Positions 11,801 through 50,189 of a DNA stretch of 64,000 bases are shown here, piece by piece. The translations under genes and the position numbers were made by a program. This stretch comes from Agelas oroides (taxonomy: Eukaryota > Porifera > Demospongiae > Agelasida > Agelasidae). Location: positions 6,956,205-7,020,204 of the forward strand of contig OX422187.1 in NCBI GenBank assembly GCA_949130485.1, read 5' to 3'. Each line of letters begins with the position of its first letter. Positions within the stretch are counted from its first letter, which is position 1. The notes under the pieces were generated by a model. The model ran no database searches. It worked only from the letters and a program-made list of their open reading frames with translations, and was not told the origin of the DNA.

Positions 11801-14575
11801 GTGGGGCTCGTGAAAGCCTGTTTATCTGCGGGAAAGAAGTGATAACGACGTTTTAATCTCGGAGGAGGTGCTGTGAAGCACGTGCAAGCCTGTTTAAGTG
11901 CCAGAGAAGATCGAGAAAGCAGTTTCCACCTCTGTGGAAGTCCTGTGAGGTTGGTGCAAGCCTGTTTATGTGCGGGAAAGACCTGATAACGCCGTTTTAA
12001 ACTCCGAGGAGGTGCTGTGAAGTACGTGGAGGCCGGTTTAAGTGCCAGAGAAGATCGAGAGAACAGCTTTCACCGCTGTGGAGGCCCTGTGAGGTTGTTG
12101 CAAGCCTGTTTATGTGCGGGAAAGACCTGACGAAGTCGTTTTAACCTCCGAGGAGGTGCTGTGACGCACTTGTAGGCCTGTTTAAGTGCCAGGGAAGATC
12201 GTGAAAGCAGTTTTCACCACTGAGGAAGACCTGTGAGGCTCGTGCATGCCTGTTTACGTGCGGGAAAGACCTGGTAACGCCGTTTTAACCTACGAGGAGG
12301 TACGTGCAAGCCTGTTTAAATGCCCGAGAATATCCAGAAAGCAGATCTCACTACTCAGTCGGCCCTGTTAAGTTGGTGCAAGCCTGTTTATGTGCGGGAA
12401 AGATCTGATATCGCCGTTTTAACCTCTCATGAGGTGCTGTGAAGTACGTGGAGGCCTGTTTAAGTGCCAGAGAAGATCAAGAAAGCAGTTTCCACCACTG
12501 TGGAGGTCCTGTGAGGTTGGTGCAAGCCTGTTTATGAGCGGGAAATCCTGATAAAGCAGTTTTAACCTCAGAGGAAGTGCTGTGAAGCACGTGCAGGCCT
12601 GTTTATGTGCCAGGGAAGGTCGAGAAATCAATTTTCTCCACAGTGGAGTTCCTGCGACTGTCGTGCATGCCTGTTTATGTGCGGTAAAGACCTGATAACG
12701 CCGTATAAAACCTCCGTGGAGGTGCTGGAAGCACTTGCAGGCTTGTTTAAGTGCCAGGGAAGATCGAGAATGCAGTTTTCACCACTGTGGAGGTCCTGTG
12801 AGGCTCGTGCGAGACTGTTTATGTGCGGGACAGAACTGATAACGACGTTTTAACTTGCGAGGAGGTGCTGTGAAGCACGTGCAGGCCTGTTTAAGTGCCA
12901 GAGAAGATCGAGAAAGCAGTTTTCACCGCTGTGAAGGTCCTGCGAGTTTGGAGCAAGGCTGTTTATGAGTCGGAAATCTTGACAAAGCAGTTTTAAGCTC
13001 AGAGGAGATGCTGTGAAGCACGTCCAAGCCTTTTTAAGTACCAGAGAAGATCGAGAAAGCAGTTTTCACCGCTTTGGGGGCCATCTGATGTCGGTGCAAG
13101 CCTGTTTATGAGCGGGAAAGACCTCATAACGCCGTTTTAACCTACGAGGCTGTGCTGTGAAATCGCAAAGGCCTGTTCCAGTGACAGTGAAGATCAAGAA
13201 AGCAGTTTCCATCACTGTGGAGGTCCTGTGAGGTTGGTGCAAGCCTGTTTATGTGCTGGAAAGACCTGATAACGCCGTTCAAACCTCCGTGGAGGTGCTG
13301 TGAAGCACTTGCAGGTTTGTTTAAGTGCCAGGAAAGATCGAGAATGCAGTTTTGACCACTGTGGAGGTCCTGTGAGGCTCGTGCAAGCCTGTTTATGCGC
13401 GGGAAAGAACTGATAACGACGTTTTAACCTACGAGGCTGTGCTGTGAAGCACGTGCAGGCCTCTTTAAGTGCCAGGGAAGGTCGAGAAATCAATTTTCTC
13501 CACAGTGGAGCTCCTGCGACTGTCGTGTATGCCTGTTTATGTGCGGTAAAGACCTGATAACGCCGAATAAAACCTCCGTGGAGTTGCTGTGAAGCACTTG
13601 CAGGCTTGTTTAAGTGCCAGGGATGGCCACTGTGAAGATCCTGTGACGCTCGCGCAAGCCTGTTTATGTGCGGCACTGAACTGATAACGACGTTTTAACC
13701 TCCGAGGAGGTGCTGTGAAGCACGTGCAGGCCTGTTTAAGTGCCAGGGAAGGTCGAGAAATCAATTTTCTCCACAGTGGAGCTCCTGCGACTGTCGTGTA
13801 TGCCTGTTTATGTGCGGTAAAGACCTGATAACGCCGAATAAAACCTCCGTGGAGTTGCTGTGAAGCACTTGCAGGCTTGTTTAAGTGCCAGGGATGGCCA
13901 CTGTGAAGATCCTGTGACGCTCGCGCAAGCCTGTTTATGTGCGGCACTGAACTGATAACGACGTTTTAACGTCCGAGGAGGTGCTGTGAAGCACGTGCAG
14001 GCCTGTTTAAGTGCCAGGGAAGGTCGATAAATCAATTTTCTCCACAGTGGAGCTCCTGCGACTGTCGTGTATGCCTGCTTATGTGCGGTAAAGACCTGAT
14101 AACGCCGAATAAAACCTCCGTGGAGTTGCTGTGAAGCACTTGCAGGCTTGTTTAAGTGCCAGGGATGGCCACTGTGGAGATCCTGTGACGCTCGCGCAAG
14201 CCTGTTTATGTGCGGCACTGAACTGATAACGACGTTTTAACCTCCCAGGAGGTGCTGTGTAGCACGTGCAGGCCTGTTTAAGTGCCATAGAAGATCGAGA
14301 AAGCAGTTTTCACCGCTGTGGAGGCCCTGAGAGGTTGGGGCAAGCCTGTTTATGAGCCGGAAATCCTGATAGAGCATTTTTAACCTCAAAAGAGGTGCTG
14401 TGAAGCACTTGCAGGCCTGTTTAAGTGCCAGGGATGTGAGGTTGTTGCAAGCCTGTTTATGTGCGGGAAAGACCTGACAAAGTGGTTTTAACATCCGAGG
14501 AGGTGCTGTGAAGCTGGTTTAGGCCTGTTGAAGTGCCAGAGGAGATCCAGAAAGCAGTTATCACTGCTGTGGCTG
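2843..14575. repeat. 144-bp dimeric satellite, second block
   Basis: The same family as at the left edge, about 80 dimers long and heterogeneous. Local variants recur: a form with GAAATCAATTTTCTCCACAG in half A, and a form with CAGTGACAGTGAAGATCAAG. Their alternation gives irregular higher-order patterns. No interspersed element and no gene were recognised in this stretch. Confidence 0.95.
13447..14246. repeat. 271-bp higher-order repeat, about three units
   Basis: Inside the satellite, a 271-bp unit repeats about three times with almost no change (for example 13537, 13808 and 14079 start equivalent positions). Each unit is four 72-bp halves (288 bp) with 17 bp lost around the sequence GGGATGGCCACTGTG. 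A related single unit lies near 10800-10980. Because the unit is not a multiple of 72, the short deletion must predate the amplification. Confidence 0.85.
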
Positions 14576-16949: not shown

Positions 16950-17346
16950 AGGCCTGAAACAGCTAAATAATACTTGACCAAATGGGTATCAAACAGTTCC
17001 ATTTAATGTGTACCTTCATAATCTGATGTTTGTTTTCATTTTGGTATGAGTGGTTCAAAAATAGTCTAGGTACAGTTGTGATTTTACCACTTGTACATAT
17101 CGGTTACTTGTAACTAACAACTTCAGGCCTGGAACAGCTAATACTTGACCGAACTGTAAAAAATGGGTATTAAACAGTTCCATTTGATGTTTACATTCAT
17201 AATCTGATGTTTGTTTTCATTTTGGAGTAAGTGTTCTGAAAATTGTCTGGGTACGGTTGTGGTTTTACCAACGTATCGGTTAGTTGTAACTAACAATTTC
17301 AGGCCCGAAACAGCTAATACTTGACCAAACTATACAAAATGGGTAT

Positions 17347-18023
17347 CAGTGGCGGATTTAGGGGGGGTAAGGGGGGTGCAAATGCACCCCCCTTTGGCGG
17401 CTAGTAATGTATTTTGCGTACATAACTGCACGAGTCCATCAAATGATTATGCAGCAGTGGCATGCAGCAACAACATCCAGGCACAGCTACACACTCACAT
17501 ATCAGTTCCTTACTGATCTCCAGACGTTTGACTAGGCCTAGAGTTGCTTCCAGATATTCAGTTCGGCCCGAGGGGTCCGCCACGGCGCGCCTCTGCGTAC
17601 GAGATTTCGAAATCCACTGGATTTCATGTGGATTTCGGATTTCAGAGTGGATTTGTGGATTTCACAGTGGATCTGGATTTCAGTTTGGATTTCTGCCGAT
17701 AGGTTTCTTCTTGTATGTTCTTGGATATTTTAGTTACCGGTATAGTTCCCAGCTTAGCAAAAAATTTTAGTTAGTTGTAGTTTTGGTTAACTAAATTTTA
17801 AAAAGGCCATACTAAAATGTATTTAGTTATAGTTAACTAAAACAACACTGTCGACAGTGTACGAGATTTCTTTTGTGACGGACAGCTCGGTTCGGCCTTC
17901 CAGCTATATTTTGTACGAATGCGTTCACGTGACCGAAAGTGGGCGTGGCAACCCAAAAATTTCCGCCGCACTTCGCGCGCAGGTGACTGAACCCCCCTTT
18001 CTAAATTTCTAGATCCGCCACTG
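17347..18023. mobile_element. 677-bp MITE-like DNA element nested in the 181-bp satellite
   Basis: Ends are CAGTGGCGGATTTAG and, reverse complemented, CAGTGGCGGATCTAG, a 15-bp TIR with one mismatch. The 5-bp GGTAT is repeated at 17342-17346 and 18024-18028, and removing the element restores the satellite unit. A G-run follows the left TIR and a C-run precedes the right TIR. The interior includes an iterated GGATTTC motif near 17605-17700. No transposase is encoded. The 5-bp target duplication does not fit hAT (8 bp), so the superfamily is left open. Confidence 0.85.
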
Positions 18024-20337
18024 GGTATCAAACAGTTCCATTTGATGTGTACCTTCATAATCTGATGTTTGTTTTCATTTTGGTATGAGTGGTTCAAAAA
18101 TAGTCTAGGTACAGTTGTGATTTTACCACTTGTACATATCAGTTACTTGTAACTAACAACTTCAGGCCTGGAACAGCTAATACTTGACCGAACTGTACAA
18201 AATGGGTATTAAACAGTTCCATTTGATGTTTACATTCATAATCTGATGTTTGTTTTCATTTTGGAGTAAGTGTTCTGAAAATTGTCTGGGTACGGTTGCG
18301 GTTTTACCAACGTATCGGTTAGTTGTAACTAACAATTTCAGGCCCGAAACAGCTAATACTTGACCAAACTATACAAAATGGGTATCAAACAGTTCCATTT
18401 GATGTGTACATTCATAATCTGATGTTTGTTTTGATTTTGGTATGAGTGGTTCAAAAATAGTCTAGGTGCGGTTGTGATTTTACCACTTGAACATATCGGT
18501 TACTTGTAACTAACAATTAATTTCAGGCCCGAAACAGCTAATACTTGACCAAAATATACAAAATGGGTATCAAACAGTTCCATTTGATGTGTACATTCGT
18601 AATCTGATGTTTGTTTTGATTTTGGTATGAGTGGTTCAAAAATAGTCTAGGTGCGGTTGTGATTTTACCACTTGAACATATCGGTTACTTGTAACTAACG
18701 ATTAATTTCAGGCCCGAAACAGCTAATACTTGACCAAAATATACAAAATGGGTATCAAACAGTTCCATTTGATGTGTACATTCGTAATCTGATGTTTGTT
18801 TTCATTTTGGTATGAGTGGTTCAAAAATAGTCTAGGTGCGGTTGTGATTTTACCACTTGTACATATCGGTTACTTGTAACTAACAATTTCAGGCCCGAAA
18901 CAGCTAATACTAGACCAAACTATACAAAATGGGTTTCAAACAGTTCCATTTGATGTGTACATTCATAATCTGATGTTTGTTTTCATTTTGGTATGAGTGG
19001 TTCAAAAATAGTCTAGGTGCGGTTGTGATTTTACCACTTGTACATATCAGTTACTTGTAACTAACAACTTCAGGCCTGGAACAGCTAATACTCGACCAAA
19101 CTATACAAAATGGGTATCAAACAGTTCCATTTGATGTGTACATTCATAATCTGATGTTTGTTTTCATTTTGGTATGAGTGGTTCAAAACTAGTCTAGGTG
19201 CGGTTGTGATTTTACCACTTGTACATATCGGTTACTTGTAACTAACAATTTCAGGCCCGAAACAGCTAATACTTGACCAAACTATACAAAATGGGTTTCA
19301 AACAGTTCCATTTGATGTGTACATTCATAATCTGATGTTTGTTTTCATTTTGGTATGAGTGGTTCAAAAATAGTCTAGGTGCGGTTGTGATTTTACCACT
19401 TGTACATATCGGTTAGTTGTAACTAACAACTTCAGGCCTGGAACAGCTAATACTTGACCAAACTATACAAAATGGGTATCAAACAGTTCCATTTGGTGTG
19501 TACATTCATAATCTGATGTTGTTTTCGTTTTGGTATGAGTGGTTCAAAAATAGTCTAGGTGCGGTTGTGATTTTACCACTTGTACATATCGGTTAGTTGT
19601 AACTAACAACTTCAGGCCTGGAACAGCTAATACTTGACCAAACTATACAAAATGGGTATCAAACAGTTCCATTTGGTGTGTACATTCATAATCTGATGTT
19701 GTTTTCGTTTTGGTATGAGTGGTTCAAAAATAGTCTAGGTGCGGTTGTGATTTTACCACTTGTACATATCGGTTACTTGTAACTAACAACTTCAGGCCTG
19801 GAACAGCTAATACTTGACCAAGCCAGGCAAAATGGGTATCAAACAGTTCCATTTGGTGTGTACGTTCATGATCTGTTGTTTGTTCTCATTTTGGAGTAAG
19901 TGTTCTGAAAATTGTCTGGGTACGGTTGTGGTTTTACCACTTAATTGTACATATCGGTTACTTGTAACTAACAATATCATCCCTGAAACAGGCAATACTT
20001 GACCAAGCCAGACAAAATGGGTATCAAACAGTACCATTTGGTGTGTACATCCATAATCTGATGTTTGTTTTCGTTTTGGAGTAAGTGTTCTGAAAATTGT
20101 CTGGGTACGGTTGTGGTTTTACCAACGTATCGGTTAGTTGTAACTAACAATATCATCCCTGAAGCAGCTAATACTTGACCAAACTATACAAAATGGCTAT
20201 CAAACAGTTCCATTTGATGTGTACATTCATAATCTGATGTTTGTTTTCATTTTGGTATGAGTGGTTCAAAAAGAGTCTAGGTACGGTTGTGATTTTACCA
20301 CTTGTACATATCGGTTACTTGTAACTAACAATTTCAG

Positions 20338-21763
20338 GTCCGAATCAGCTAATACTTGACCAAACTATACCAAATGGGTATAAAACAGTTCCATTTGGTG
20401 TGTACATTCATAATCTCATGTTTGTTTTCATTTTGGAGTAAGTGTTCTGAAAATTGTCGGGGTACGGTTGTGGTTTTACCAACGTATCGGTTAGTTGTAA
20501 CTAACAATATCATCTCTGAAGCAGCTAATACTTGACCAAACTATACAAAATGGGTATCAAACAGTTCCATTTGATGTGTACATTCATGATCTGATGTTTG
20601 TTTCATTTTGGAGTAAGTGTTCTGAAAATTGTCTGGGTACGGTTGTGGTTTTACCAACGTATCGGTTAGTTGTAACTAACAATATCATCCCTGAAGCAGC
20701 TAATACTTGACCAAACTATACAAAATCGGCATCAAACAGTTCCATTTGATATGTACATTCATAATCTGATGTTTGTTTTCATTTTGGTATGAGTGGTTCA
20801 AAAAGAGTCTAGGTACGGTTGTGATTTTACCACTTGTACATATCGGGTACTTGTAACTAACAATTTCAGGCCTGGAACAGCTAATACTTGACTAAACTAT
20901 ACAAAATGGGTATCAAACAGTTCCATTTGATGTGTACATTCATAATCTGATGTTCTTTTCCATTTTCGTATGAGTGGTTCAAAAATAGTCCAGGTGCGGT
21001 TGTGATTTTACCACTTGTACATATCGGTTACTTGTAACTAACAATTTCAGGTCCGAATCAGCTAATACTTGACCAAACTATACCAAATGGGTATAAAACA
21101 GTTCCATTTGGTGTGTACATTCATAATCTCATGTTTGTTTTCATTTTGGAGTAAGTGTTCTGAAAATTGTCGGGGTACGGTTGTGGTTTTACCAACGTAT
21201 CGGTTAGTTGTAACTAACAATATCATCTCTGAAGCAGCTAATACTTGACCAAACTATACAAAATGGGTATCAAACAGTTCCATTTGATGTGTACATTCAT
21301 GATCTGATGTTTGTTTCATTTTGGAGTAAGTGTTCTGAAAATTGTCTGGGTACGGTTGTGGTTTTACCAACGTATCGGTTAGTTGTAACTAACAATATCA
21401 TCCCTGAAGCAGCTAATACTTGACCAAACTATACAAAATCGGCATCAAACAGTTCCATTTGATATGTACATTCATAATCTGATGTTTGTTTTCATTTTGG
21501 TATGAGTGGTTCAAAAAGAGTCTAGGTACGGTTGTGATTTTACCACTTGTACATATCGGGTACTTGTAACTAACAATTTCAGGCCTGGAACAGCTAATAC
21601 TTGACTAAACTATACAAAATGGGTATCAAACAGTTCCATTTGATGTGTACATTCATAATCTGATGTTCTTTTCCATTTTCGTATGAGTGGTTCAAAAATA
21701 GTCCAGGTGCGGTTGTGATTTTACCACTTGTACATATCGGTTACTTGTAACTAACAATTTCAG
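20338..21763. repeat. 713-bp higher-order repeat, two tandem copies
   Basis: Within the 181-bp array, 20338-21050 and 21051-21763 are near-identical blocks of four units each, including shared private variants such as GTCCGAATCAGC and TGTTCTTTTCCATTTTCG at a constant 713-bp offset. This is a recent duplication by unequal exchange or replication slippage. Confidence 0.88.
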
Positions 21764-22071
21764 GCCCGAAACAGCTAATACTTGACCAAACTATACAAAA
21801 TGGGTATCAAACAGTTCCATTTGGTGTGTACAATCACAATCAATCACATAATATTTCCATTGCATGACAAGGATCAGAGTCTGATCATATACACAAACTA
21901 TCACAAGTGTGTCCCATGCAGTTGTTGTGTTAGTGTGCTGATCATGATGAGAAACTAGCACACGTGGTGTGTCATACAGTTTTGGTGATGAGGAACTAGC
22001 ACATGTAGTGTGTCATACTGCTTATTTGGCACACCAGTTTTACCCAAATAGCACACCAGTTTTTTTCTGTG

Positions 22072-22817
22072 TGCCCTGTGAGGTTGATGCAAGCTTGTTT
22101 ATGTGCGGGAAAGACCTGATAACAGCGTTTTAACCTCTGAGGATGTGCTGTGAGAAGTACGTGGAGGCCTGTTTAGGTGCCAGAGAAGATCGAGAGAGCA
22201 GTTTTCACCGCTGTGGCTACCCTGTGAGGTTGTTGCAAGCCTGTTTATGTGCGGGAAAGACCTGACAAAGTAGTTTTCACCTCCGAGGAGGTGCTGTGAA
22301 GCTCGTGTAGGCCTGTTTATGTGCCAGAGAAGATCGAGAAGGCAGTTTTCACTACTGTGGCTGCCCTGTGAGGTTGGTGCAAGCCTGTTTATGTACAGGA
22401 AAGACCTAATAACGACGTTTTAACCTACGAGGCTGTGCTGTGAAGCTCGTGAAAGCCTGTTTCAGTGACAGTGAAGATCAAGAAAGCAGTTTCCATCACT
22501 GTGGTGGTCCTGTGAGGTTGGTGCAAGCCTGTTTATGTGCGGGAAAGACCTGACAAAGTAGTTTTAACCTCGGAGGAGGTGCTGTGAAGCACGTGTAGGC
22601 CTGTTTAAGTGCCAGAGAAGATCGGGAAAGCAGTTTTCACCACTCTGGAGGTCCTGTGAGGCTCATGCAAGCCTGTTTATTTGCGGGAAAGACTTGAAAA
22701 GTCGTTTTAAACTCCCAGGAGGTGCTGTGAAGCACTTGCAGGCTTGTTTAAGTGCCAGGGAAGATCGGGAAAGCAGTTTTCACCACTGAGGAGGACCTGT
22801 GAGGCTCGTGCATGCAT
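22072..22817. repeat. 144-bp dimeric satellite between the 7.5-kb element and the Penelope fragment
   Basis: Five or so dimers. The block resumes in phase with the sequence left of 14576. The segment from about 22741 onward belongs to the duplicated block that recurs at 49017. Confidence 0.92.
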
Positions 22818-23466
22818 ATACATCCAGATAGGATCAGCTGTCTACCAACAAACAATTGGCATCCCTATGGGTACTGATTGTGCTCCATTAGTTGCGGATC
22901 TATTTCTTTTCTCCTATGAATTTGAGTTTATGAAATCCCTAATCCGAACTGACCTCTCTGTAGCAGCTAAATTTAGTAATACTTGCAGATATATTGATGA
23001 CTTGCTTACACTTAACAACCCTGATTTTCAAGCATGCATAGGCCAAATTTACCCCCCAGAATTAGAGCTTAAGAAAACTACAGAGAGCCATGACAGCTGT
23101 TCCTACCTGGATCTTAACATTAATGTCCTGAATGGTAAGTTTTGCACAGACTTGTATGATAAGAGGGATGCCTTCAACTTTTCAATAGTCAATTTTCCAC
23201 ACATGGATAGCAACATACCCTCAAAACCAGCATACGGAGTAGTAATTTCACAGTTAGTTCGATATTTGAGGATATGTTGTAATTACCAAGATTTTGTTTA
23301 CAGATCTAAACTACTCACAACCAGATTACTTAGACAGGGATACGTATACCAAAAACTCTGTAGCACCTACAAGACCTTTGTGCATCGCTACCCCAGGACT
23401 TTACAGAAGTACGGGAGGTGCCTTAAAACCATTATTACTGAATGCATTGCCATAGCTACTGTTTAA
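22818..23466 (+). pseudogene. Penelope-type reverse transcriptase, C-terminal half, copy 1
   Basis: About 216 codons are open to a TAA at 23464-23466. Visible motifs are GIPMGTDCAPLVADLFLF (RT motif B) and CRYIDDLL (motif C, with the YxDD catalytic aspartates). DSCSYLDLNINV follows in the region after motif C, and then comes the thumb region. Motif A and everything upstream are absent because the insertion is 5'-truncated. The frame happens to run back into the satellite to an ATG at 22744; that ATG is satellite sequence and not a native start. The protein lacks the finger domain, so activity is not expected. Confidence 0.85.
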
Positions 23467-23597
23467 CGCAGTCTGAACATGCAGTTTACTTGGCTTGTCA
23501 CATTTATGCACACACAGCCTTTAAACACGCACTGTTTGCCTTACACTGTTTGCCTTGTGCCTTATTAACAATACTTCCGGTACCTCCAGTGCCTCTG

Positions 23598-23622
23598 TAT
23601 GCGCGCGCGCGCACGCACGCGT
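23598..23622. repeat. Alternating purine-pyrimidine GC tract
   Basis: The 3' non-coding region of the Penelope fragment contains an alternating GC/AC run (TATGCGCGCGCGCGCACG...) of about 25 bp. Such tracts can adopt Z-DNA. The same tract is kept in copy 2 near 49874-49898. Confidence 0.7.
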
Positions 23623-23790
23623 CAATAACACGTAACGATCAATCGCTACGTAAGACCTTCGAACGAAAGACAGCTGCACGAAGAACAGCTGCACGAAGAG
23701 ACGGTGCTTTCGAGGAGTCTCTACCGACTTTTGAATAAGGCCAGCCACCTGACTGCATTCTGTGCATGAGATAGCAGTCCCCATTTCCCG

Positions 23791-23853
23791 GTCACCTCAG
23801 CGCAGCTGATGAGGCCTGGTATTGGCCGAAACGCGTCCTGCGCAGTGGGTGAC
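23791..23853 (+). ncRNA. Type I hammerhead ribozyme, copy 1
   Basis: Every core element is present in order. Stem I 5' strand: GTCACC (23791-23796), bulge TCA, GCGCAG (23800-23805). Core: CTGATGA (23806-23812). Stem II: GGCC / GGCC (23813-23816 and 23824-23827) with a 7-nt loop. GAAA: 23828-23831. Stem III: very short CGCG (23832-23835). Cleavage triplet: GTC (23835-23837). Stem I 3' strand: CTGCGC (23838-23843), bulge AGTG, GGTGAC (23848-23853). Both halves of stem I pair perfectly. Predicted self-cleavage falls after C23837. Minimal stem III is typical of Penelope-associated hammerheads, which are thought to act partly as dimers. The internal loop of stem I and loop II are placed for the usual tertiary contact. 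Confidence 0.93.
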
Positions 23854-23913
23854 TTTGCATAACATCTAGGCCTGTTTTATAAGGGAGATGTGGTTCGTTG
23901 ATTGTTCATGCAT

Positions 23914-26900
23914 GTTTATGTGCGGGAAAGATTTGATAACGCCGTTTTGACCTCAGAGGAAGTGCTGTGAAGCACGTCCAGGCCTGTTTAAGTGCCAGGG
24001 AAGGTCGAGAAATCAATTTTCCCCACATAGGAGTTCCTACCACTCTCGTGTATGCCTGTTTATGTGCGGTAAAGAGCTGATAACTCCGTTTAAACCTCCG
24101 AGGTGTTGTGAAGCACGTGCAGGCCTGTTTAAGTGCCAAAGAAAATCGATAAAGCTGTTTTCACGGCTGTGGAGGCCCTGTGAGTTTGCGGCAAGCCTGT
24201 TTATGTGCGGGAAGGACCTGATAACGCCGTTTTAACCTCCGAATAGGTGCTGTGATGTACGTGGAGGCATGTTTAAGTGCCAGAGAAGATCGAGAGAGCA
24301 GTTTTCACCGCTGTGGAGGCCCTGTGAGGTTGTTGCAAGCCTGTTTATGTGCGGGAAAGACCTGACAAAGTAGTTTTAACCTCCGAGGAGGTGCTGTGAC
24401 GCACTTGTAGGCCTGTTTAAGTGCCAGGGAAGATCGGGAAAGCAGTTTTCACTACTCTGGAGGTCCTGTGAATCTCATGCAAGCCTGTTGAAGTGCCAGG
24501 GAAGATCGAGAAAGCAGTTTTCACCACTGAGGATGACCTGTGAGGCTCGTGCATCCCTGTTTATGTGCGGGAAAGATCTGATAAAGCCGTTTTGACCTCA
24601 GAGGAAGTGCTGTGAAGCACGTGCAGGCCTGTTTAAGTGCCAGCAAAGGTCGAGAAATCAATTTCCTCCACAGAGGAGTTCCTGCGACTCTCGTGTATGC
24701 CTGTTTTATGTGCGATAAAGACCTGATAACGCCGTTTAAACCTCAGAGGAGGTGTTGTGAAGCACGTGCAGCCCTGTTCAAGTGCCAAAGAAAATCGATA
24801 AAGCTGTTTTCACCGCTGTGGAGGCCCTGTGAAGTTGGGGCAAGCCTGTTTATGTGCGAGAAAGACTTGATAACGCCATTTTAACCTCCGAGGAGGTGCA
24901 GTGAGGCACGAGCCGGCCTGTTTAAGTGCCAGAGAAGATCGAGAAAGCACTTTTCACTGCTGTGGCTGCCCTATGAGGTTGGTGCAAGCCTGTTTATGTA
25001 TAAGGAAGACCTGATAACGCCGTTTTAACATAAGGGGCTGTGCTGTGAAGCTCATGAAAGCCTGTTTCAGTGACAGTGAAGATCAAGAAAGCAGTTTCCA
25101 CCACTGTGGAGGTCCTGTGAGGTTGGTGCAAGCCTGTTTATGTGTGGGAAGGACCTGATAACGCCGTTTTAACCTCCGAGTAGGTGCTGTGATGTACGTG
25201 AAGGCCTGTTTAAGTGCCAGAGAAGATCGAGAGAGCAGTTTTCACTGCTGTGGAGGCCCTGTGAGGTTGTTGCAAGCCTGGTTTTGTGCGGGAAAGACCT
25301 GACAAAGTAGTTTTAACCTCCGAGGATGTGCTGTGACGCACTTGTAGGCCTGTTTAAGTGCGAGGGAAGATCGGGAAAGCAGTTTTCACCACTCTGGAGG
25401 TCCTGTGAATCTCATGCAAGCCTGTTGAAGTGCCAGGGAAGATCGAGAAAGCAGTTTTCACCACTGAGGATGACCTGTGAGGCTCGTGCATGCCTGTTTA
25501 TGCGCGGGAAATATCTGATAACGCCGTTTTGACCTCAGAGGAAGTGCTGTGAAGCACGTGCAGGCCTGTTTAAGTGCCAGGGAAGGTCGAGAAATCAATT
25601 TCCTCCACAGAGGAGTTCCTGCGACTCTCGTGTATGCCTGTTTTATGTGCGGTAAAGACCTGATATCGCCGTTTAAACCTCCGAGGAGGTGTTGTGAAGC
25701 ACGTACAGGCCTGTTCAAGTGCCAAAGAAAATCGATAAAGCCGTTTTCACCGCTGTGGAGGATCTGTGAGGTTGGGGCAAGCCTGTTTATGTGCGAGAAA
25801 GACCTGATAACGCCGTTTTAACCTACGAGGCTGTGCTGTGAAGCTCGTGAAAGCCTGTTTCAGTGACAGTGAAGATCAAGAAAGCAGTTTCCACCACTGT
25901 GGAGGTCCTGTGAGGTTGGTGCAAGCCTGTTTATGTGCGGGAAACACCTGATAACGCCGTTTTAACCTCCGAGGAGGTGTTGTGAAGAACGTGGAGGCCT
26001 GTTTAAGTGCCAGAGAAGATCGAGAGAGCAGTTTTCACTGCTGTGGAGGCCCTGTGAGGTTGTTGCAGGCCTGGTTTTGTGCGGGAAAGACCTGACAAAG
26101 TAGTTTTAACCTCCGAGGAGGTGCTGTGACGCACTTGTAGGCCTGTTTAAGAGCCAAAGAAAATCGGGAAAGCAGTTTTCACCGCTGAGGAGACCCTGTG
26201 AGGTTGGTGCAAGCCTGTTTATGTGCGGGAAAGACCTGATAACGCCGTTTAAACCTCCGTGGAGGTGCTGTGAAGCAATAGCAGGCTTGTTTAAGTGCCA
26301 GGAAAGGTCGAGAAAGCCCAATGTGGAAGTCCTGTGAGGTTGGTGCAAGCCTGCTGATGTGCGGGAAATCCTGATAAAACAGTTTTAACCTCCGAAGAGA
26401 TGCAGTGAAGCACGTGCAGACCTGTTTAAGTGCCAGGCAAGATCAAGAAAGCAGTTTTCACCACTGAGAAGGACCTGTGAGGCTCGTGAATGCCCGTTTA
26501 TGTGCGGGAAATATTTGATAACGCCGTTTTGACCTCAGAGGAAGTGCTGTGAAGCACGTGAAGGCGTGTTTAAGTGCCAGGGAAGGTTGAGAAATCAATT
26601 TTCTCCACAGAGGAGTTCCTGCGACTCTCGTGTATGCCTGTTTATGTGCGATAAAGGCCTGATAACGCCGTTTATACCTCCGTGGAGGTGCTGTGAAGCA
26701 CTTGCAGGCTTCTTTAAGTGCCAGGGATGATCGAGAATGCAGTTTTTTCCACTTTAGAGGTCCTGTGAGGTTCGTGCAAGCCTGTTTGTGTTCGGGAAAG
26801 AACTGATAACGACGTTTTAACCTCCGAGGAGGTGCAGTGAAGCACGTGCAGGCCTGTTTAAGTGCCAAAGGAAATCGATAAAGCAGTTTTCACCGCTGTG

Positions 26901-27240
26901 GAAGTCCTGTGAGGTTGGGGCAAGCCTGTTTATGTGCGGGAAAGACCTGATAACGCCATTTTGACCTTTGAGGAGGTGCTGTGAAGTACGTGGAGGCCTG
27001 TTTAAGTGCCTGAGAAGATGGAGAAAGATGCTTTCACCACTGAGGAGGACCTGTGAGGCTCGTGCATGCCTGTTTATGTGCGGGAAAGACCTGATAACGT
27101 AGTCTTAACCAACGAGGTTGTTCTGTGAAGCACGTGCAGGCCTGTTTAAGTGCCAGAGAAGATCGAGAAAGAAGATTTCACTGCTCAGGAGGCCCTGTTA
27201 GGTTGGTGCAAGGCTGCTTATGTGCGGTAAAGGTCTGATG
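23914..27240. repeat. 144-bp dimeric satellite with a 937-bp higher-order repeat
   Basis: Satellite block between the Penelope fragment and LINE copy 1. Two blocks of 937 bp (13 x 72 + 1) repeat in tandem: positions 24612 and 25549 are equivalent. The whole block is duplicated at 50190-53516 without net length change (offset 26276). Confidence 0.92.
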
Positions 27241-27381
27241 CTACTGGGTATTTGCAACAACCAGTCACTACAGAGGGCATTTGGCTATAGTTCAGCATAG
27301 CACTAACTTCGCTACAGTACACAGTCGAGTGACAGTAGGCGGGTGCTCGGTGGAGTACGAGTACATACTTCTACGTCACTT
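27241..27381. repeat. 140-bp repeat at the 3' side of LINE copy 1
   Basis: Begins CTACTGGGTATTTGCAAC and interrupts the satellite. It is identical or nearly so to 53517-53657 and 59935-60075, and is inverted relative to 58053-58192. It always sits just outside the LINE poly-T tract. Probably the terminal repeat of an older element that served as the LINE target. Confidence 0.75.
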
Positions 27382-27391
27382 CGCTCACGTT

Positions 27392-27392
<1 letters not shown>

Positions 27393-27431
<39 letters not shown>

Positions 27432-28330
27432 CAATAATTTTGTCATTAAAGACAAGGATACATGTATATAGCAACATTGGCTAATACTAGACATGATCCA
27501 TAAACTAAACTAATGAAGTAGAATGTACATGTAAGTATCTATTAAAGGCATGAACAGAAGAAGCACAAACGATAGATGAATCTAATTTATTCCAGTGAAA
27601 GATGGTTTGAGGGACAAAAGAATAGAAATATGAATTAGTTCTGGCGAAAGGACGATTTAAAACAAGATTGTGTGGTGCATGGTGACTAAGGGAAGTGCTT
27701 ACGGTGAAAGTTGTTTCATCAAAGTAACACAGTTTGTTGATAATCTTGTACAGTAGACTGAGTCGAGTTTCCAGCCTTCGGCATTCAAGTGATGGAAGGT
27801 CAGCAAGTTCCAGGAGATCTTGGTAACCGCTGTCCCATAGTCCGGTAGCCATGCGGCATGCAAATTTTTGAACATTCTCAAGTTCAGTTTTGTCCTTGCT
27901 TAGGTAAGGGGACCAGATGGCCGAGGCATAATCGAGATGGGGCCTAACGAGGGAGATGTAGAGTTGAAGTAGAGCACTACCCGGAGCATTATTGTAGAAT
28001 CTTCTGTAGAGAAGGCCAAGGATCTTCCTAGCCTTACTGCAGATTGATTGAACATGTTCACCCCAAGAGAGATCATGTGACAAGAGAACACCCAGATACT
28101 TGAACATTTCCACCTGTTCCAGAGAATGGCCTTCAAGCAAAAGTGGTGATGATGGTGTAGATACAGTTTTCCTGCGTGAAACAATCATGTATTTGCATTT
28201 ATCCCTATTGAGTGTGAGATGGTTGGTGCAGGACCAGTTCCCAACTTTATCAATATCATCCTGGAGTTTAGCAAAGTCTTCAGGTGAGTTGATGACTCGA
28301 AACAACAGGACATCATCTGCATACAGGGTT
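27393..28330 (-). mobile_element. LINE copy 1, 3' portion (CR1/L2-like)
   Basis: Minus-strand LINE. Its 3' end is an uninterrupted run of 36 T on the plus strand (the poly-A tail) at 27393-27428. The coding part runs from the catalytic YADD motif to the stop at 27505: LYADDVLLF, KCKYMIVSRRK, FKYLGVLLSHDLSW, and a C-terminal region with NVQKFACRMATG. It is cut at 28330 by a Penelope-like insertion and continues at 31404. In the intact layout of copy 2 these residues are contiguous with DGAKI upstream of YADD. Confidence 0.92.
27505..28330 (-). pseudogene. LINE reverse transcriptase, C-terminal part, copy 1
   Basis: About 275 codons starting just before RT motif C (YADD) and running through the thumb to the natural stop. 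The frame continues a little into the inserted Penelope-like DNA, giving a spurious N-terminus. It matches copy 2 residue for residue over the shared part. Because motifs A and B lie on the far side of a 3-kb insertion, this copy cannot encode a complete enzyme. Confidence 0.88.
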
Positions 28331-28915
28331 TGGGGTATCGGGTGGGGGAGCGCCAACACTGCTACGCACATCGTAGCTCCCATTTGTTGAGGCAAGGCTC
28401 GCATAGTTGTGTAAATTGTGTCTTCTCCTAATGCGTGGGGGTCGTTGAGGGAGAGGGGGGGGTGATGGCCACTTGTTCTGGATTATGCTGGGGGTGGGGC
28501 TGAATAGTTCGATGGATCCAGGTAGGGATTCTTCATGCTGGGGGCTAGTGCTATGGGAAGAGGTTAGACTGTTAGTGGGGCTAAGTGGAGGGGGAGGTGG
28601 CTGGTCCTGGGTGGAATCAGGGGTAGGGGCATGGACTGGGCTTGCGGTGGGTGTGGGGCTAAACAGTAAGGGGGAAGGGCTATGGTTAACAGATTCTATA
28701 CTACTTATACAGGGCATGCACGGGGTTACCGAGAGTACCAGCCTAAATTGGCTTTTTGGTGTCTCTTGTATGCTGCTGATGCTGTCATCCTGCGTCTGGG
28801 GGGGCTCTGACAGTATCTCCGGGGACGTAATCGGTTCCTCGGTATAGATCTCCCTGGACCGAAGGGCGTATCTCAGGCGAGTAGTATAGTGCAGTAGTTT
28901 CATAAATGACGTCAT
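28331..28915 (-). pseudogene. N-terminal region of a second Penelope-like ORF unit (Pro/Ser-rich)
   Basis: About 195 codons from ATG at 28913-28915 to the insertion border. It begins MTSFMKLLHYTTRLRYALRS and then becomes rich in Pro, Ser and Thr (PPPPPLSPTNSLTSS). It lies just downstream of the hammerhead-like region, where the start of a Penelope ORF is expected after a pseudo-LTR. Its end is the junction with the LINE. I infer that it is the amino-terminal part of the same protein whose C-terminal part lies at 29304-31403, in a head-to-tail arrangement. A separate ORF1 is the alternative. Confidence 0.5.
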
Positions 28916-28997
28916 ACTGCGGCGCTGCGGTATAGGCTTATTGATATGATGAGGACAGTAGGAGGGGGTTGGCAAAACTTTATTCTCTGCTTAGAGG

Positions 28998-29036
28998 CCC
29001 GACGTTTCGCTCATCTATGGAGAGCTTTTTCAAGGG
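28998..29036 (-). ncRNA. Degenerate hammerhead-like motif in the Penelope-like element
   Basis: On the minus strand the order is CCC, TTGAAAA, then stem II GCTC...GAGC with a 9-nt loop, then GAAA, C-GTC, GGG. This is the hammerhead plan with a 3-bp stem I and a 1-bp stem III, in the position expected for a Penelope pseudo-LTR. The core departs from CTGANGA at C3 (T) and G8 (A). Those two positions normally pair, so the change could preserve pairing as U-A. Cleavage is doubtful. Confidence 0.4.
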
Positions 29037-29303
29037 TAAGTACAATGAAATGAAACAGCGCTTAAATATAGGTTTGCTTAGTAACAGCGTGTATGATAAC
29101 TAGCAACGGCGTGTATCTAGTGATAGCGTGTTTGCCATGGCAACAGCATGCTATCGTAAACTATGTAAGGCCTAAGGGATACAGCATGTGAAAGGCCTAA
29201 AGGGACTTCAAATACAAACAAAAAATAATAAGGGACGTATACTCCAGGGAACGAACCCTGGAGGGACAACAAAACGGGAGCAATGGCAGTAGGTGTAGGG
29301 AGG

Positions 29304-31403
29304 CTATGGGATGATATTTAGTCCGTAGGGTTCTATTGTTCTTAAGGCCTTGATCCAAGCACTTTCTCTCTTCTTCAGACTTCTTTGATCTTCTGTGCTT
29401 TCAACTGGCTGGACTTGGATGTCAGAGGGGATGTGGTGGTTCTGTTGGACATGTCTATACAGGCGAGTTTGTACCCAGTTAGCTGGTCTTTTGGTGAACA
29501 TTTCTCTCAAATGGTTTCTGAATCTATTGTGTAAGGGTTGTGTGGTCATTCCTGCATATTGGACTTTACATCTAGTGCATGTTATTACATAGATGACATT
29601 CCTTGTTTTACAGCTAATGGTGTTTGTAATCTTGAGGTTGTGGTATGTACCTTTGGAGGTGCTCTTAATATAAGGTTTGGTATCGAGGGCTCTGCATGTC
29701 AAGCAGTTTTTACTGCATCTTTTGATTAGTGGGGGTGCATTCAGGGCAGGCAGGGGTTCACAAAGGAGAGTGAGGTCTCGGTCAATTTTATATACGATCT
29801 TTGAGTCCTCTAGTCTTGCTCGGGTAAGCTGTTTTCTGATGCTCTTATGGGTTCTAAAGGCTACCGTGGGTCTATTTGGGAAAAGTCTAGAAAGTAGCGG
29901 GGATTTCTCGATGAGGTGCCAGTGTTTAACAAGCAATCTTCTGAGGCGGTGTGTTGGTAAATGCGGTGAATATGTAGTAGTGAAAGTTAGGCGTTCATCT
30001 CCAGCGTGTGGTTTGCTTGCTAGTGTTTTTAGTCTGTCAGGGAATTTAATCCCTCTAATGCTCTCGTCTATGGTCTCTTGCCTATATCCTCTTTTTTTCA
30101 TATTTTCGACATGCTTCTCTCTGTGCGTTTGGAATGTAGCTTCGTTTGAGTTCGTTCGGAGGTATCTAAGTAGTTCTCCTTTAATGATACCCCGGCCCGT
30201 TCCAGGGGGGTGGGCAGATGAGGCATGTACATACTGTTGGGTATTGGTGGGCTTGATATGGGTTTTGATATCCAGGATGCCTTCCTTGACAAATCTCTCC
30301 CCTTTGTGTAAGCATAGGTCTAAGAACGTGATTTCGTCTTTTGAAAACTCGGCAGTAAAATTAATGCGCGGGTGTAGGTTGTTGATGCTTTTGATGAACT
30401 GTTCCAGGCTTTCTTTCGTGTCAGTCCACACTAAAAATATATCATCTATGTATCTCTTCCAATGTATGGGGGAGGGGTTTGTTTCAGAAAGGATTCTGGA
30501 TTCCAGTGCACCCATGAAGATGTTAGCATAGGCAGGTGCCATCTTTGTACCCATGGCTGTGCCTTGTTTCTGAATGTAAAATTTATCGTTAAATCTGAAA
30601 ACATTTTTGTAAAGAATGAGTTCTAAAAGCTTTTTTAGCCAACTGGTTGGAGGACACAGAGGGTCCTTGTTATCCCAGTTTTCAATGGCTTGAAGCGCAG
30701 CGTGAATGCCATCTTCCGTCGGGATGTTGGTGTACAATGAGGAAACATCCAGGGTACAAAGAATGCAGTCCTTGGGTAATTTAGTGGATTCTATGTATTT
30801 AACAAATTCATTTGTGTCTTTTATGTAGGAGGGGAGTGACTTCGCCAGGGGCTGAAGCCAGTGGTCCAAGTAAGCTGAAATCTTTTCAGTTGGACCATCA
30901 CAACCTGAGACTATGGGCCTAGCTGAGGGTGGGTTTTTGTGTATCTTTTTTAGGAAGTACATTTCCTGTGTCCTCACCATTCGTGGAGGTAGGAGGTACT
31001 CAGCAGTGGGTTTATCTATGTGTCCCTCTTGGTACATGGATCTAACAGCTTGGGTTACTTCTGCGGCTACTTGTTTAGTCTGGTCTTCCTGAAGCTCATT
31101 GTACGTATCTCTATCTGAAAGATGCTGTAAACCAGTTTCAATGTATTCCTGTCTATCTTGTATTACAACAGTGGATCCTTTGTCTGCCTTTTTGATGATA
31201 ATGTCTTTCCTTTTTCTAAGTTTTCTGAGGGCTATTCGTTGGCGTTGGCTTAGATTGTTTCTAGTCCTATGTGGTTTCAACTTGGTAGCTTCTATCTTGA
31301 GGGCATATATATAGTCTTCTAGGCAATTATTCGTTGATGGGGGGGGTATGTAATTGCTTTGGGGTTTAAATTTCCTTTTCTTTGGCCTGTTTTGCTGAAA
31401 CTT
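29304..31403 (-). CDS. Penelope-like reverse transcriptase with C-terminal GIY-YIG endonuclease (5'-incomplete)
   Basis: An open frame of about 699 codons runs from the insertion border to a stop at 29304. From the N-terminus it shows a basic stretch near NRPKKRKFKPQ, then KKADKGSTVV and FLKKIHKNPPSARPIVSG. RT motif A is LDVSSLYTNIP, motif B is GTAMGTKMAPAYANIFM and motif C is KRYIDDIFLVW. After the thumb comes a cysteine cluster (CSKNCLTC). Then comes a GIY-YIG nuclease with NVIYVITCTRC, VQYAGMT and the conserved arginine in NRFRNHLREMF. RT followed by GIY-YIG is diagnostic for endonuclease-bearing Penelope-like elements. No ATG is near the 5' border; the first methionine-like codon usually chosen (31278-31280) is TTG, so the native start lies outside the insert. 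Confidence 0.92.
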   Translation of the reverse strand, partial: KFQQNRPKKRKFKPQSNYIPPPSTNNCLEDYIYALKIEATKLKPHRTRNNLSQRQRIALRKLRKRKDIIIKKADKGSTVVIQDRQEYIETGLQHLSDRDTYNELQEDQTKQVAAEVTQAVRSMYQEGHIDKPTAEYLLPPRMVRTQEMYFLKKIHKNPPSARPIVSGCDGPTEKISAYLDHWLQPLAKSLPSYIKDTNEFVKYIESTKLPKDCILCTLDVSSLYTNIPTEDGIHAALQAIENWDNKDPLCPPTSWLKKLLELILYKNVFRFNDKFYIQKQGTAMGTKMAPAYANIFMGALESRILSETNPSPIHWKRYIDDIFLVWTDTKESLEQFIKSINNLHPRINFTAEFSKDEITFLDLCLHKGERFVKEGILDIKTHIKPTNTQQYVHASSAHPPGTGRGIIKGELLRYLRTNSNEATFQTHREKHVENMKKRGYRQETIDESIRGIKFPDRLKTLASKPHAGDERLTFTTTYSPHLPTHRLRRLLVKHWHLIEKSPLLSRLFPNRPTVAFRTHKSIRKQLTRARLEDSKIVYKIDRDLTLLCEPLPALNAPPLIKRCSKNCLTCRALDTKPYIKSTSKGTYHNLKITNTISCKTRNVIYVITCTRCKVQYAGMTTQPLHNRFRNHLREMFTKRPANWVQTRLYRHVQQNHHIPSDIQVQPVESTEDQRSLKKRESAWIKALRTIEPYGLNIIP

Positions 31404-31677
31404 ATTTTGGCGCCATCTGTGAGGTTGATCTCAGTAAGATCGTTAATATAGATCAGAAAAAGAAGGGGACCAAGAACAGAGCCCTGTGGTACTCCAGAAA
31501 TAACAGGAACAGGCAAAGAAGATTCACCATTAACCACAACAGACTGGGAACGACTAGCTAGATATCCACTGACCCAGTGCAGTATGTGGTCATTGAAGCC
31601 AAGATTCTCCAGTTTCTTTAGCAGAGGCAAGTGAGGGACACTGTCAAAGGCTTTCCGATAGTCAAAGAACACAGCAC
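31404..31677 (-). mobile_element. LINE copy 1, RT motif A-B portion
   Basis: This is the 5' remnant of LINE copy 1. It encodes FFDYRKAFDSVPH (motif A, catalytic Asp) and ISGVPQGSVLGPLLFLIYI (motif B), ending in DGAKI at the Penelope-like insertion. On its other side the LINE is cut at AGCAC, which is shared with the satellite sequence GAAGCACGTGC. The border is therefore a microhomology junction and not a classical target-site duplication. LINE copy 3 has exactly the same junction at 61085-61089. Confidence 0.9.
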
Positions 31678-34600
31678 GTGCAGGCGTGTTTAAGTGCCAG
31701 AGAAGATCGAGAAAGCAGTTTTCACTGCTCTGGCTGCCCTATGAGGTTGGTGCAAGCCTGTTTATGTACGGGAAAGACCTGATAACTCCGTTTTAACCAA
31801 CGAGGCTGTGCTATGAAGCTCATGAAAGCCTGTTTCAGTGACAGTGAAGATCAAGAAAGCAGTTTCCACCACTGTGGAGGTCCTGTCAGGTTGGTGAGGG
31901 CCTGTTTATGTGCGGGAAACAGCTGATAACGCCGTTTTAACCTCCGAGGTGGTGCTGTGAAGCACGTGCAGGCCTGTTTAAGTGCCAGAGAAGACCGACC
32001 AAGCAGTTTTCACCGCTGTGGAGGCCCTGTGAGGTTGGTGCAAGCCTGTTTATATGCGGGAAAGACCTGACAAAGTAGTTTTAACCTCCGAGGAGGTGCT
32101 GTGACACACTTGTAGGCCTGTTGAAGTGCCAGGGACGATCGAGAAAGCAGTTTTCACCACTGAGGAGGACCTGAGAGGCTCGTGCATGCCTGTTTCAGTG
32201 TGGGAAAGATCTGATAACGCCGTTTTGACCTCAGAGGCTGTGCTATGAAGCTCGCGAAGGCCTGTTTCAGTGACAGTGAAGATCAAGAAAGCAGTTTCCA
32301 CTACTGTGGAGGTCCTGTGGGGTTGGTGCAAGCCTGTTTATGTGCGGGAAAGACCCGATAACGCCGTTTTAACCTCCGAGGTGGTGCTGTGAAGCACGTG
32401 CAGGCCTGTTTAAGTGCCAGAGAAGACCGACCAAGCAGTTTTCACCGCTGTGGAGGCCCTGTGAGGTTGGTGCAAGCCTGTTTATATGCGGGAAAGACCT
32501 GACAAAGTAGTTTTAAGCTCCGAGGAGGTGATGTGACGCACTTGAAGGCCTGTTTAAGTGCCAGGGAAGATAGGGAAAGCAGTTTTCACCACTGAGGAGG
32601 ACCTGTGAGGCACTTGCATGCCTGTTTATGTGTGGGAAAGACACGATAACGCCGTTTTAACCTCCGAGGTAGTGCTGTGAAGCACGTGCAGGCCTGTTTA
32701 AGTGCAAGAGAAGACCGACCAAGCAGTTTTCACTGCTGTGGAGGCCCTGTGAGGTTGGTGCAAGCCTGTTTATATGTGGGAAAGACCTGACAAAGTAGTT
32801 TTAACCTCAGAGGAGGTGATGTGACGCACTTGTAGGCCTGTTTAAGTGCCAGGGAAGATAGGGAAAGCAGTTTTCACCACTGAGGAGGACCTGTGAGGCA
32901 CTTGCATGCCTGTTTATGTGCGGGAAAGACCCGATAACGCCGTTTTAACCTCCGAGGTGGTGCTGTGAAACACGTGCAGGCCTGTTTAAGTGCCAGAGAA
33001 GACCGACCAAGCAGTTTTCACTGCTGTGGAGGCCCTGTGAGGTTGCTGCAAGCCTGTTTATGTGCGGGAAAGACCTGACAAAGTAGTTTTAACCTCCGAG
33101 GAGGTGCTGTGACCCACCTGTAGGCCTGTTTAAGAGCCAGGGAAGATCGGGAAAGTAGTTTTCACCACTCTGGAGGTCCTATGAATCTCATGCATGCCTG
33201 TTGAAGTGCCAGGGAAGATTGTGAAAGCAGTTTTCACCACTGAGGAGGACCTGAGAGGTGGGGACAAGTCTGTTTAAGTGCTGGAAAGACCTGATAACGC
33301 CATTTTAACCTCCGAGGAGGTGCAGTGAAGCACGTTCAGGCCTGTTAAAGTGCCAGAGAAGATCGAGAAAGCAGTTTTCACTGCTGTGGCTGCCCTGTGA
33401 GGTTGGTGAAAGCATGTTTGTGTGCGGGAAAAACCTAAAAAAGCTGTTTTAGACTCCGGGGAGATGCTGTGAAGCACCTGCAGGCCTGTTTAACTTCCAG
33501 GGAATATCGAGAAAGAAGTTTACACCACTGTGGAGGTCCTGTGAGGCTCGTGAAAGCCTGTTTATCTGCGGGAAAGAACTGATAACGACGTTTTAACCTC
33601 GCAGGAGGTGCTGTGAAGCACGTGCAGGCCAGTTTAAGTGCCAAAGAAAATCGATAAAGCAGTTTTCACCGCTGTGCAGGCCCTGTGAGGTTGGGGCAAG
33701 CCTGTTTATGTGCGGGAAGGACCTGACAACGCCATTTTAACCTCCGAGGAGGTGCAGTGAAGCACGTGCAGGCCTGTTTAAGTGTCAGAGAAGATCGAGA
33801 AAGCAGTTTTCACTGCTGTGGCTGCCCTGTGAGGTTGGTACAAGCCTGTTTATGTACAGGAAAGACTTGATAACGCCGTTTTAACCTACGAGGCTGCGCT
33901 GTCAAGCTCGCGAAGACCTTTTTCAGTGACAGTGAAGATCAAGAAAGCAGTTTCCACCACTGTGGCGGTCCTGTAAGTTTGGTGCAAGCCTGTTTATGTG
34001 CAGCAAAGACCTGATAACGCCGTTTTAACCTCCGCGGTGGTGCTGTGAAGTACGTGGAGGCCTGTTTAAGTGCCAAAGAAGATCGATAAAGCAGTTTTCA
34101 CTGCTGTGGAGGCCCTGTGAGGATGGAGCAAGCCTGTTTATGTGCGGGAAAGACCTGATAACGCCATTTTAACCTTCGAGGAGGTGCAGTGAAGCACGTG
34201 CAGGCCTGTTTCAGTGACAGTGAAGACCAAGAAAGCAGTTTCCACCACTGTGGAGGTCCTGTGAGGTTGATGCAAGCCTGTTTATGTACAGGAAAGACCT
34301 GATAATGCCGTTTTAACCTACGAGGCTGTGCTGTGAAGCTCGCGAAAGCCTGTTTCAGTGACAGTGAAGATCAAGAAAGCAGTTTCCACCACTGTGGTGG
34401 TCCTGTGAGGTTGGTGCAAGCCTGTTTATGCACAGGAATGACCTGATAACGCCGTTTTAACCTACGGGGCTGTGCTGTGAAGCTCGCGAAGGCCTGTTTC
34501 AGTGCCAGAGAAGATCGGGAAAGCAGTTTTCATCACTCTGGAGTTCCTGTCAATCTCATGCAAGCCTGTTGAAGTGCCAGGGACGATCAAGAAAGCAGTT

Positions 34601-49093: not shown

Positions 49094-49742
49094 ATACATC
49101 CAGATAGGATCAGCTGTCTACCAACAAACAATTGGCATCCCTATGGGTACTGATTGTGCTCCATTAGTTGCGGATCTATTTCTTTTCTCCTATGAATTTG
49201 AGTTTATGAAATCCCTAATCCGAACTGACCTCTCTGTAGCAGCTAAATTTAGTAATACTTGCAGATATATTGATGACTTGCTTACACTTAACAACCCTGA
49301 TTTTCAAGCATGCATAGGCCAAATTTACCCCCCAGAATTAGAGCTTAAGAAAACTACAGAGAGCCATGACAGCTGTTCCTACCTGGATCTTAACATTAAT
49401 GTCCTGAATGGTAAGTTTTGCACAGACTTGTATGATAAGAGGGATGCCTTCAACTTTTCAATAGTCAATTTTCCACACATGGATAGCAACATACCCTCAA
49501 AACCAGCATACGGAGTAGTAATTTCACAGTTAGTTCGATATTTGAGGATATGTTGTAATTACCAAGATTTTGTTTACAGATCTAAACTACTCACAACCAG
49601 ATTACTTAGACAGGGATACGTATACCAAAAACTCTGTAGCACCTACAAGACCTTTGTGCATCGCTACCCCAGGACTTTACAGAAGTACGGGAGGTGCCTT
49701 AAAACCATTATTACCGAATGCATTGCCATAGCTACTGTTTAA
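49094..49742 (+). pseudogene. Penelope-type reverse transcriptase, C-terminal half, copy 2
   Basis: It encodes the same protein sequence as copy 1 (motif B GIPMGTDCAP, motif C CRYIDDLL), ending at TAA 49740-49742. The one difference noticed near the 3' end of the frame is synonymous (ATTACT versus ATTACC). The 5' part with motif A is missing. Confidence 0.85.
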
Positions 49743-50066
49743 CGCAGTCTGAACATGCAGTTTACTTGGCTTGTCACATTTATGCACACACAGCCTTTAA
49801 ACACGCACTGTTTGCCTTACACTGTTTGCCTTGTGCCTTATTAACAATACTTCCGGTACCTCCAGTGCCTCTGTATGCGCGCGCGCGCACGCACGCGTCA
49901 ATAACACGTGACGATCAATCGCTACGTAAGACCTTCGAACGAAAGACAGCTGCACGAAGAACAGCTGCACGAAGAGACGGTGCTTTCGAGGAGTCTCTAC
50001 CGACTTTTGAATAAGGCCAGCCACCTGACTGCATTCTGTGCATGAGATAGCAGTCCCCATTTCCCG

Positions 50067-50129
50067 GTCACCTCAGCGCAGCTGATGAGGCCTGGTATTG
50101 GCCGAAACGCGTCCTGCGCAGTGGGTGAC
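50067..50129 (+). ncRNA. Type I hammerhead ribozyme, copy 2
   Basis: Identical to copy 1 over all 63 positions: stem I GTCACC/GGTGAC and GCGCAG/CTGCGC, core CTGATGA (50082-50088), stem II GGCC/GGCC, GAAA (50104-50107), cleavage triplet GTC (50111-50113). Confidence 0.93.
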
Positions 50130-50189
50130 TTTGCATAACATCTAGGCCTGTTTTATAAGGGAGATGTGGTTCGTTGATTGTTCATGCAT

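Follow-up and report, generated by a model that had tools for sequence, protein, structure and literature searches.

Minimal type I hammerhead ribozymes of Penelope-like elements (PLEs) have reportedly been described by Cervera and de la Pena (2014) and by Lunse, Weinberg and Breaker (2017), and Craig et al. (2021) are said to have described permuted-domain PLEs of the Naiad type, in which GIY-YIG comes first and the reverse transcriptase (RT) second. In the available text of PMC7761336 the PLE hammerheads are minimal type I motifs in tandem that may self-cleave as dimers, and minimal forms without helix III are described for these elements; 'PLE/Naiad' is listed as a PLE class in the available text of PMC10941475. 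The axolotl type I motif, which combines a one-pair stem III with a palindromic tetraloop, cuts poorly when monomeric and more efficiently in dimeric constructs, according to the accessible portion of PMC7229834. For the PLE of Anolis carolinensis (Poseidon PAc), the accessible sections of PMC11167929 put the cut at 26 bp and the start of reverse transcription at 111-118 bp of the ORF, the latter lying 85-92 nt beyond the cut; they describe the ribozyme as dispensable for insertion in vitro and as cutting only with protein present, report unprocessed RNA as the main insertion template in vitro, and state that no reads had their start or end at the cut.

The DNA analyzed here is a 64,000-nucleotide (64-kb) stretch from the sponge Agelas oroides, referred to as the window, and it carries a type I hammerhead ribozyme with a minimal, self-complementary stem III at 23791..23853 on the + strand, an assignment that draws on the sequence, the pairings, a strict motif scan with simulation, and a sub-threshold alignment to the Rfam model HH9. 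As a sequence motif the hammerhead is confirmed to be genuine. The core words that the original prediction had placed there are exact and at the correct coordinates on the + strand, with CTGATGA at 23806-23812, GAAA at 23828-23831 and GTC at 23835-23837, so that CUGAUGA, GAAA and GUH follow one another in the order of a type I motif; G10.1-C11.1 closes stem II, and stem I is open at its outer ends. The pairing, claimed to be perfect, is so throughout stem II (GGCC/GGCC, 4 bp, with the 7-nt loop TGGTATT) and in both segments of stem I, the inner being GCGCAG/CTGCGC (6 bp) and the outer GTCACC/GGTGAC (6 bp), separated by an internal loop of TCA opposite AGTG. Since hammerheads cut 3' of GTC, the predicted cleavage site lies between 23837 and 23838 (+), and 23838 would be the 5' end expected after cleavage.

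The description of the ribozyme as complete was correct as to type I and the minimal stem III, but overstated the case in that a stable stem III is missing: within one molecule, stem III consists of a single A-U pair that closes a CGCG loop, or else of two pairs that leave a loop of 2 nt. The same palindrome, ACGCGT at 23831..23836 (+), is self-complementary, and pairing analysis allows it a 6-bp stem III with a second copy. Set beside the minimal type I PLE hammerheads, as far as the available parts of PMC7761336 and PMC6155905 describe them, the Agelas motif has the same core, the same type I layout, a near-absent stem III and the same, putatively pseudo-LTR, place past the RT, and dimer cleavage has been suggested for them also; two in tandem within one element were not seen here, and no difference is established. 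According to the accessible text of PMC7761336, PLE variants lack tertiary contacts between the stem I loop and loop II; in the Agelas ribozyme both the stem I internal loop and the 7-nt loop II exist.

Judged from its borders, the ~1.09 kb from 22818 (or 22816) to 23906 is one 5'-truncated insertion. We place this Penelope-like insertion (+) at 22818..23906 (1089 bp), given that an RT frame starts abruptly after satellite DNA, that the satellite resumes past the element in the same phase, and that comparison of the flanks gives CATGCAT, or at least CATGC, as target-site duplication on both sides, at 22811..22817 and 23907..23913 (+). The left border falls at 22816 if the duplication is 5 bp and at 22818 if it is 7 bp. 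An intact satellite word, GTGCATGCCTGTTTATG, which has 16 copies in the window, is continued from one side of the insertion to the other with a single base changed; with a 7-bp duplication the unit that was struck had A where the 16 copies have C, and since the empty-site word so implied has no copies elsewhere in the window, the duplication may be 5 bp. If CATGC alone was duplicated, the right flank was altered later. The surrounding satellite has a period of 72/144 bp and the insertion sits in phase within one unit, bearing out the placement of the ribozyme inside a satellite array, just as the RT similarity bears out the claim that its host is a Penelope-like fragment. The borders and the target-site duplication go beyond the original prediction, as do the self-complementary stem III and the derivation of both ribozyme copies from one duplicated insertion.

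The insertion opens with the C-terminal part of a Penelope-like RT (QTIGIPMGTDCAPL...CRYIDDLL) at 22825..23466 (+), with a stop at its end and no GIY-YIG after it. The stretch at 23467..23790 (+), 5' of the ribozyme, is by position a 3' untranslated or putative pseudo-LTR region, a name taken from known PLE anatomy, and a 53-nt tail follows the ribozyme at 23854..23906 (+), which by analogy with the Anolis element, as the available sections of PMC11167929 describe it, is possibly the start of a next element copy. The start of the hammerhead thus lies 325 nt beyond the RT stop and its end 53 nt before that of the element, the predicted cut being 69 nt from the element end. A pseudo-LTR hammerhead would be expected at this place, in an element in which a second pseudo-LTR, and with it the repeat, is absent.

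The satellite occurs in 72/144/288-bp forms in many arrays in the window (for example 2840-14434), and its units contain, by eye in the consensus, short palindromes, GTGCT-GTGA-AGCAC and CCTCC-GA-GGAGG among them, at which satellite transcripts could form small hairpins. A second satellite, of 181 bp and about 21 copies, occupies 18022-21841, and a short stretch with this period also lies at 16980-17348.

The generic RT model is nearly silent on this fragment: Pfam RVT_1 gives E 0.055, and alone does not reveal a Penelope-type RT. Pfam found no GIY-YIG after the RT in this 5'-truncated fragment, and NCBIfam gave no match above its cutoff. Among 14 stretches from genome_contigs one locus proved to be a relative (L001), to whose C-terminal part the fragment is 36% identical over query residues 6-200 (BLASTP, 72/198 identical, 122 bits); to the window's own PLE with GIY-YIG last the identity is 23% (BLASTP, 39.7 bits). 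These similarities to L001 and to a GIY-YIG-bearing PLE mark the fragment as a Penelope-type RT. L001 comes from a record labelled as a Flavobacteriales MAG, presumably misbinned eukaryotic DNA. Its ORF, of 1013 aa, has GIY-YIG at aa 154-234 (E 2.4e-6, which passes the cutoff) and the RT at aa 711-861 (E 2.2e-4, which does not), so that GIY-YIG stands upstream of the RT within one ORF, in the N-terminal half that is missing from the truncated fragment. Searches of viral_contigs returned no relatives, whether the query was the RT fragment (2 stretches), the L001 protein (3), the window's other PLE (1) or the alignment (26), nor did a pattern search; solved structures gave two matches up to E 1, the best at 0.46, which were not accepted as relatives. 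In the L001 contig, which is short, the exact hammerhead core is absent and Rfam gives no hammerhead match up to E 5, which would speak mildly against a shared ribozyme.

On the strength of this one relative, the RT likely belongs with the permuted-domain PLEs (GIY-YIG first, RT second; Naiad-type), which it resembles in being closest to a protein of that order and from which it differs in that the N-terminal half is gone by truncation. Given that GIY-YIG precedes the RT in L001, the domain could be lost simply with the truncated 5' part, and permutation plus truncation is the likely, though not proven, best explanation of the missing tail. The RT without a GIY-YIG tail was therefore correctly noted, while its interpretation as the sign of a less-described lineage finds no support, the one relative found having GIY-YIG N-terminally. 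An undescribed, endonuclease-lacking PLE lineage was rejected as the default on the same ground.

Other retroelements lie near by. A second PLE, with a C-terminal GIY-YIG, occupies 28331-31401 (-) and is inserted in a CR1-like element; its 708-aa frame matches RVT_1 (E 7.9e-13) and GIY-YIG (E 2.1e-4, just under cutoff), and its empty site is kept in the duplicated block near 54602. Over its 3071 bases it has no exact CTGATGA, and with CTGANGA allowed only CTGAAGA at base 2024. A non-LTR retrotransposon, which we take to be CR1-like, lies in several frames at 53777-57732 (-), with an RT (RVT_1, E 2.1e-25), an endonuclease (Exo_endo_phos_2, E 1.7e-6) and one ORF in which a PHD finger is matched slightly below the cutoff. 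Partial frames judged by eye to match it lie at 27505-28482, 31319-31738, 60195-60572 and 60635-61150.

The 63-nt ribozyme stretch is repeated exactly within the window at 50067..50129 (+), inside a duplicate of the Penelope-like insertion at 49094..50182 (+; offset 26,276) that has the same CATGCAT flanks and 2 differences in 1089 bp. Two independent insertions were rejected on account of those shared flank words and so few differences: the two ribozymes are, on comparison of the sequences, one independent copy, which leaves no covariation test of the stems. BLAST aligns 22072-28330 with 48350-54602 at 97.78%; the left 741 aligned satellite bases hold 103 differences, which puts the probable start of the young block near 22.75 kb. 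We observe a recent segmental duplication of ~22750-28330 and 49030-54602, ~26.3 kb apart inside the satellite array; other blocks related to these lie at 58364-60548 and 61086-62360. The copies differ at 2 of 1091 positions of the insertion (wider border), 0 of 891 of the CR1-like part and 21 of 3328 of the right satellite. Special conservation of the ribozyme was rejected, the neighboring DNA being conserved alike, and for this reason conservation is unusable as evidence of function.

The sequence, the motif, the borders, the duplicated flank word, the segmental duplication and one RT relative are observed, and together they make it probable that the hammerhead belongs to the pseudo-LTR of a Penelope-like retrotransposon with a probably permuted (Naiad-type) RT, that it lies in a 5'-truncated copy inserted in a satellite and later duplicated, and that it cuts as a dimer; its activity, its dimeric state, its template role and its clade are what we infer. 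A 5'-truncated copy of the element landed in one 72/144-bp satellite unit and was later duplicated together with its surroundings. Where element RNA is in tandem or in multiple copies, a pair of hammerheads would join via ACGCGU in a 6-bp stem III and form stem I across the two partners, and cleavage would occur after GUC. Reverse transcription would begin ~69 nt downstream of the cut site, to judge from the border at 23906 and the Anolis element, and starting thus beyond the cut it would leave new insertions carrying the ribozyme and a short tail. The insertion includes sequence from either side of the cut, and the RNA copied into it was therefore probably intact at that point, or had been rejoined. 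The fragment at 22818-23906 is incapable of moving by itself.

This anatomy fits the Anolis picture by analogy, 69 nt here being close to 85-92 nt there, and as far as the available text of PMC11167929 goes the two elements are alike in having the hammerhead near the pseudo-LTR/ORF junction and an insertion 3' end tens of nt past the cut, so that the copied RNA crossed the cut. Poseidon PAc differs in its C-terminal GIY-YIG and in having a ribozyme that overlaps with the start codon and depends on protein for cleavage in vitro (same text).

There is an even chance that the hammerhead is now a sequence without present function, carried along first by the element and then by segment copying. That reading agrees with a pseudo-LTR origin in a Penelope-like element and differs from it on present activity only. 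It gains from the truncation of the element, which lacks most of the RT and any GIY-YIG, and from the recent duplication of a block whose neighboring parts are as well conserved as the insertion; against it, the core is intact and the chemistry could still occur.

Folded alone, a 69-mer holding the motif reaches -30.1 kcal/mol (z -2.15; 4 of 200 shuffles equally stable), and the minimum-energy monomer fold is not a hammerhead, the GAUG of the core being paired with CGUC. Hammerhead-compatible folds, computed with the core held unpaired, make up ~4% of the predicted ensemble for the lone motif in each of four contexts of 69 to 440 nt, satellite read-through included; stem II has a predicted probability of ~0.7 and inner stem I of 0.93-1.0 in all four. 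For two molecules in the double-hammerhead arrangement, in which stem I pairs between the two strands, the computed energy is -59.9 kcal/mol versus -54.4 without stem III, the 6-bp stem III adding 5.5. The dimer minimum, at -66.0 kcal/mol, is better than this, and two misfolded monomer minima sum to -60.2, level with the double hammerhead, so that energy alone is no proof of the dimer; nearest-neighbor energies leave the folded core out of account. Among random tetraloops 36 of 256 are self-pairing, with G-U counted. Cleavage as a dimer is nonetheless the likeliest mode, given the modeled folds and the analogy with related hammerheads, and a single ribozyme at 23791 is expected from the folding to cut weakly if at all.

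It is accordingly unlikely that the hammerhead acts in cis as a monomer, cutting satellite read-through transcripts to yield processed satellite RNA. Stems I and II are predicted in all four contexts, satellite read-through among them, and satellite-borne hammerheads elsewhere are transcribed and active, according to the accessible parts of PMC8490949 and PMC7229834; but stem III has one or two pairs, the preferred fold is the GAUG/CGUC pairing with the compatible share as small as given above, and the satellite itself contains no exact-core hammerhead in the 64-kb window. The satellite was also rejected as the source of the ribozyme, its units having no exact-core motif. The newt/axolotl satellite hammerhead is alike in its one-pair stem III and palindromic tetraloop, but it sits in the tandem repeat itself, in the available text of PMC7229834, whereas that of Agelas sits in a retroelement inserted in a ribozyme-free satellite. 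The read-through cleavage that the original prediction put forward is possible, but the analysis found no evidence for it. In a more elaborate form, with the satellite transcribed, its long transcripts would be cut by the two same-orientation copies 26 kb apart, possibly pairing through ACGCGU, which we consider very improbable; if true, the array would owe a defined site of RNA processing to a retroelement.

Just as doubtful is a retrozyme-like, non-autonomous element from which a small circular RNA would be excised between tandem hammerheads. The available part of PMC7229834 gives tandem repeats of 150-450 bp with type I hammerheads as typical for animal retrozymes, but the hammerhead per 150-450 bp tandem unit that marks an animal retrozyme was not found: the motif occurs once per insertion, adjoining an RT frame, in copies 26,276 bp apart, and the nearby 72/144/181-bp repeats have no exact-core motif.

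The core words alone, as a loose pattern, match twice in the window; 100 shuffles average 0.28 matches, and 4 of the 100 have at least 2, so that by themselves the words are not convincing. With stem II of at least 3 bp and stem I of at least 5 bp required in addition to the core, the only sites in the 64-kb window are those at 23791 and 50067, with none on the other strand, and simulation gave 1 match per 1500 first-order Markov windows of 64 kb, both strands; exact CTGATGA occurs seven times (6 +, 1 -), with the rest of the motif at two of the seven. A covariance-model scan had been named as the check that might refute the ribozyme, and at gathering threshold Rfam, with 4227 families, has no match in the window. 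At relaxed threshold the top hammerhead match is Hammerhead_HH9, which both copies hit with 22.5 bits where the cutoff is 52; the E-value is 0.46 when the whole window is searched and 0.0018 when 251 bases are. The alignment keeps the core and stems I and II in register and has a deletion of 5 positions in stem III of the model. Because this best sub-threshold match is still a hammerhead in register over the core, the missing gathering-score match is not counted as a refutation: Rfam backs the hammerhead by ranking, not by threshold. Chance resemblance to the hammerhead words, for which the shuffled recurrence of the loose pattern and the sub-cutoff Rfam score speak, is extremely improbable in view of the rarity of the strict motif and of a position, past the RT in the pseudo-LTR region, that is the one reported for PLE hammerheads.

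The Agelas hammerhead looks, from its sequence, like a genuine member of a kind already described, a dimer-type Penelope hammerhead in a truncated, probably permuted PLE, and its dimer-type stem III suggests that such ribozymes can be missed by Rfam thresholds. It is also a well-bounded example, in that the insertion itself shows that the copied RNA spanned the ribozyme cut site. A copied RNA left uncut would bear on the role of hammerheads in Penelope-like elements and would agree with the in vitro result for the Anolis element, where unprocessed RNA is the main template as far as the accessible text reports (PMC11167929).
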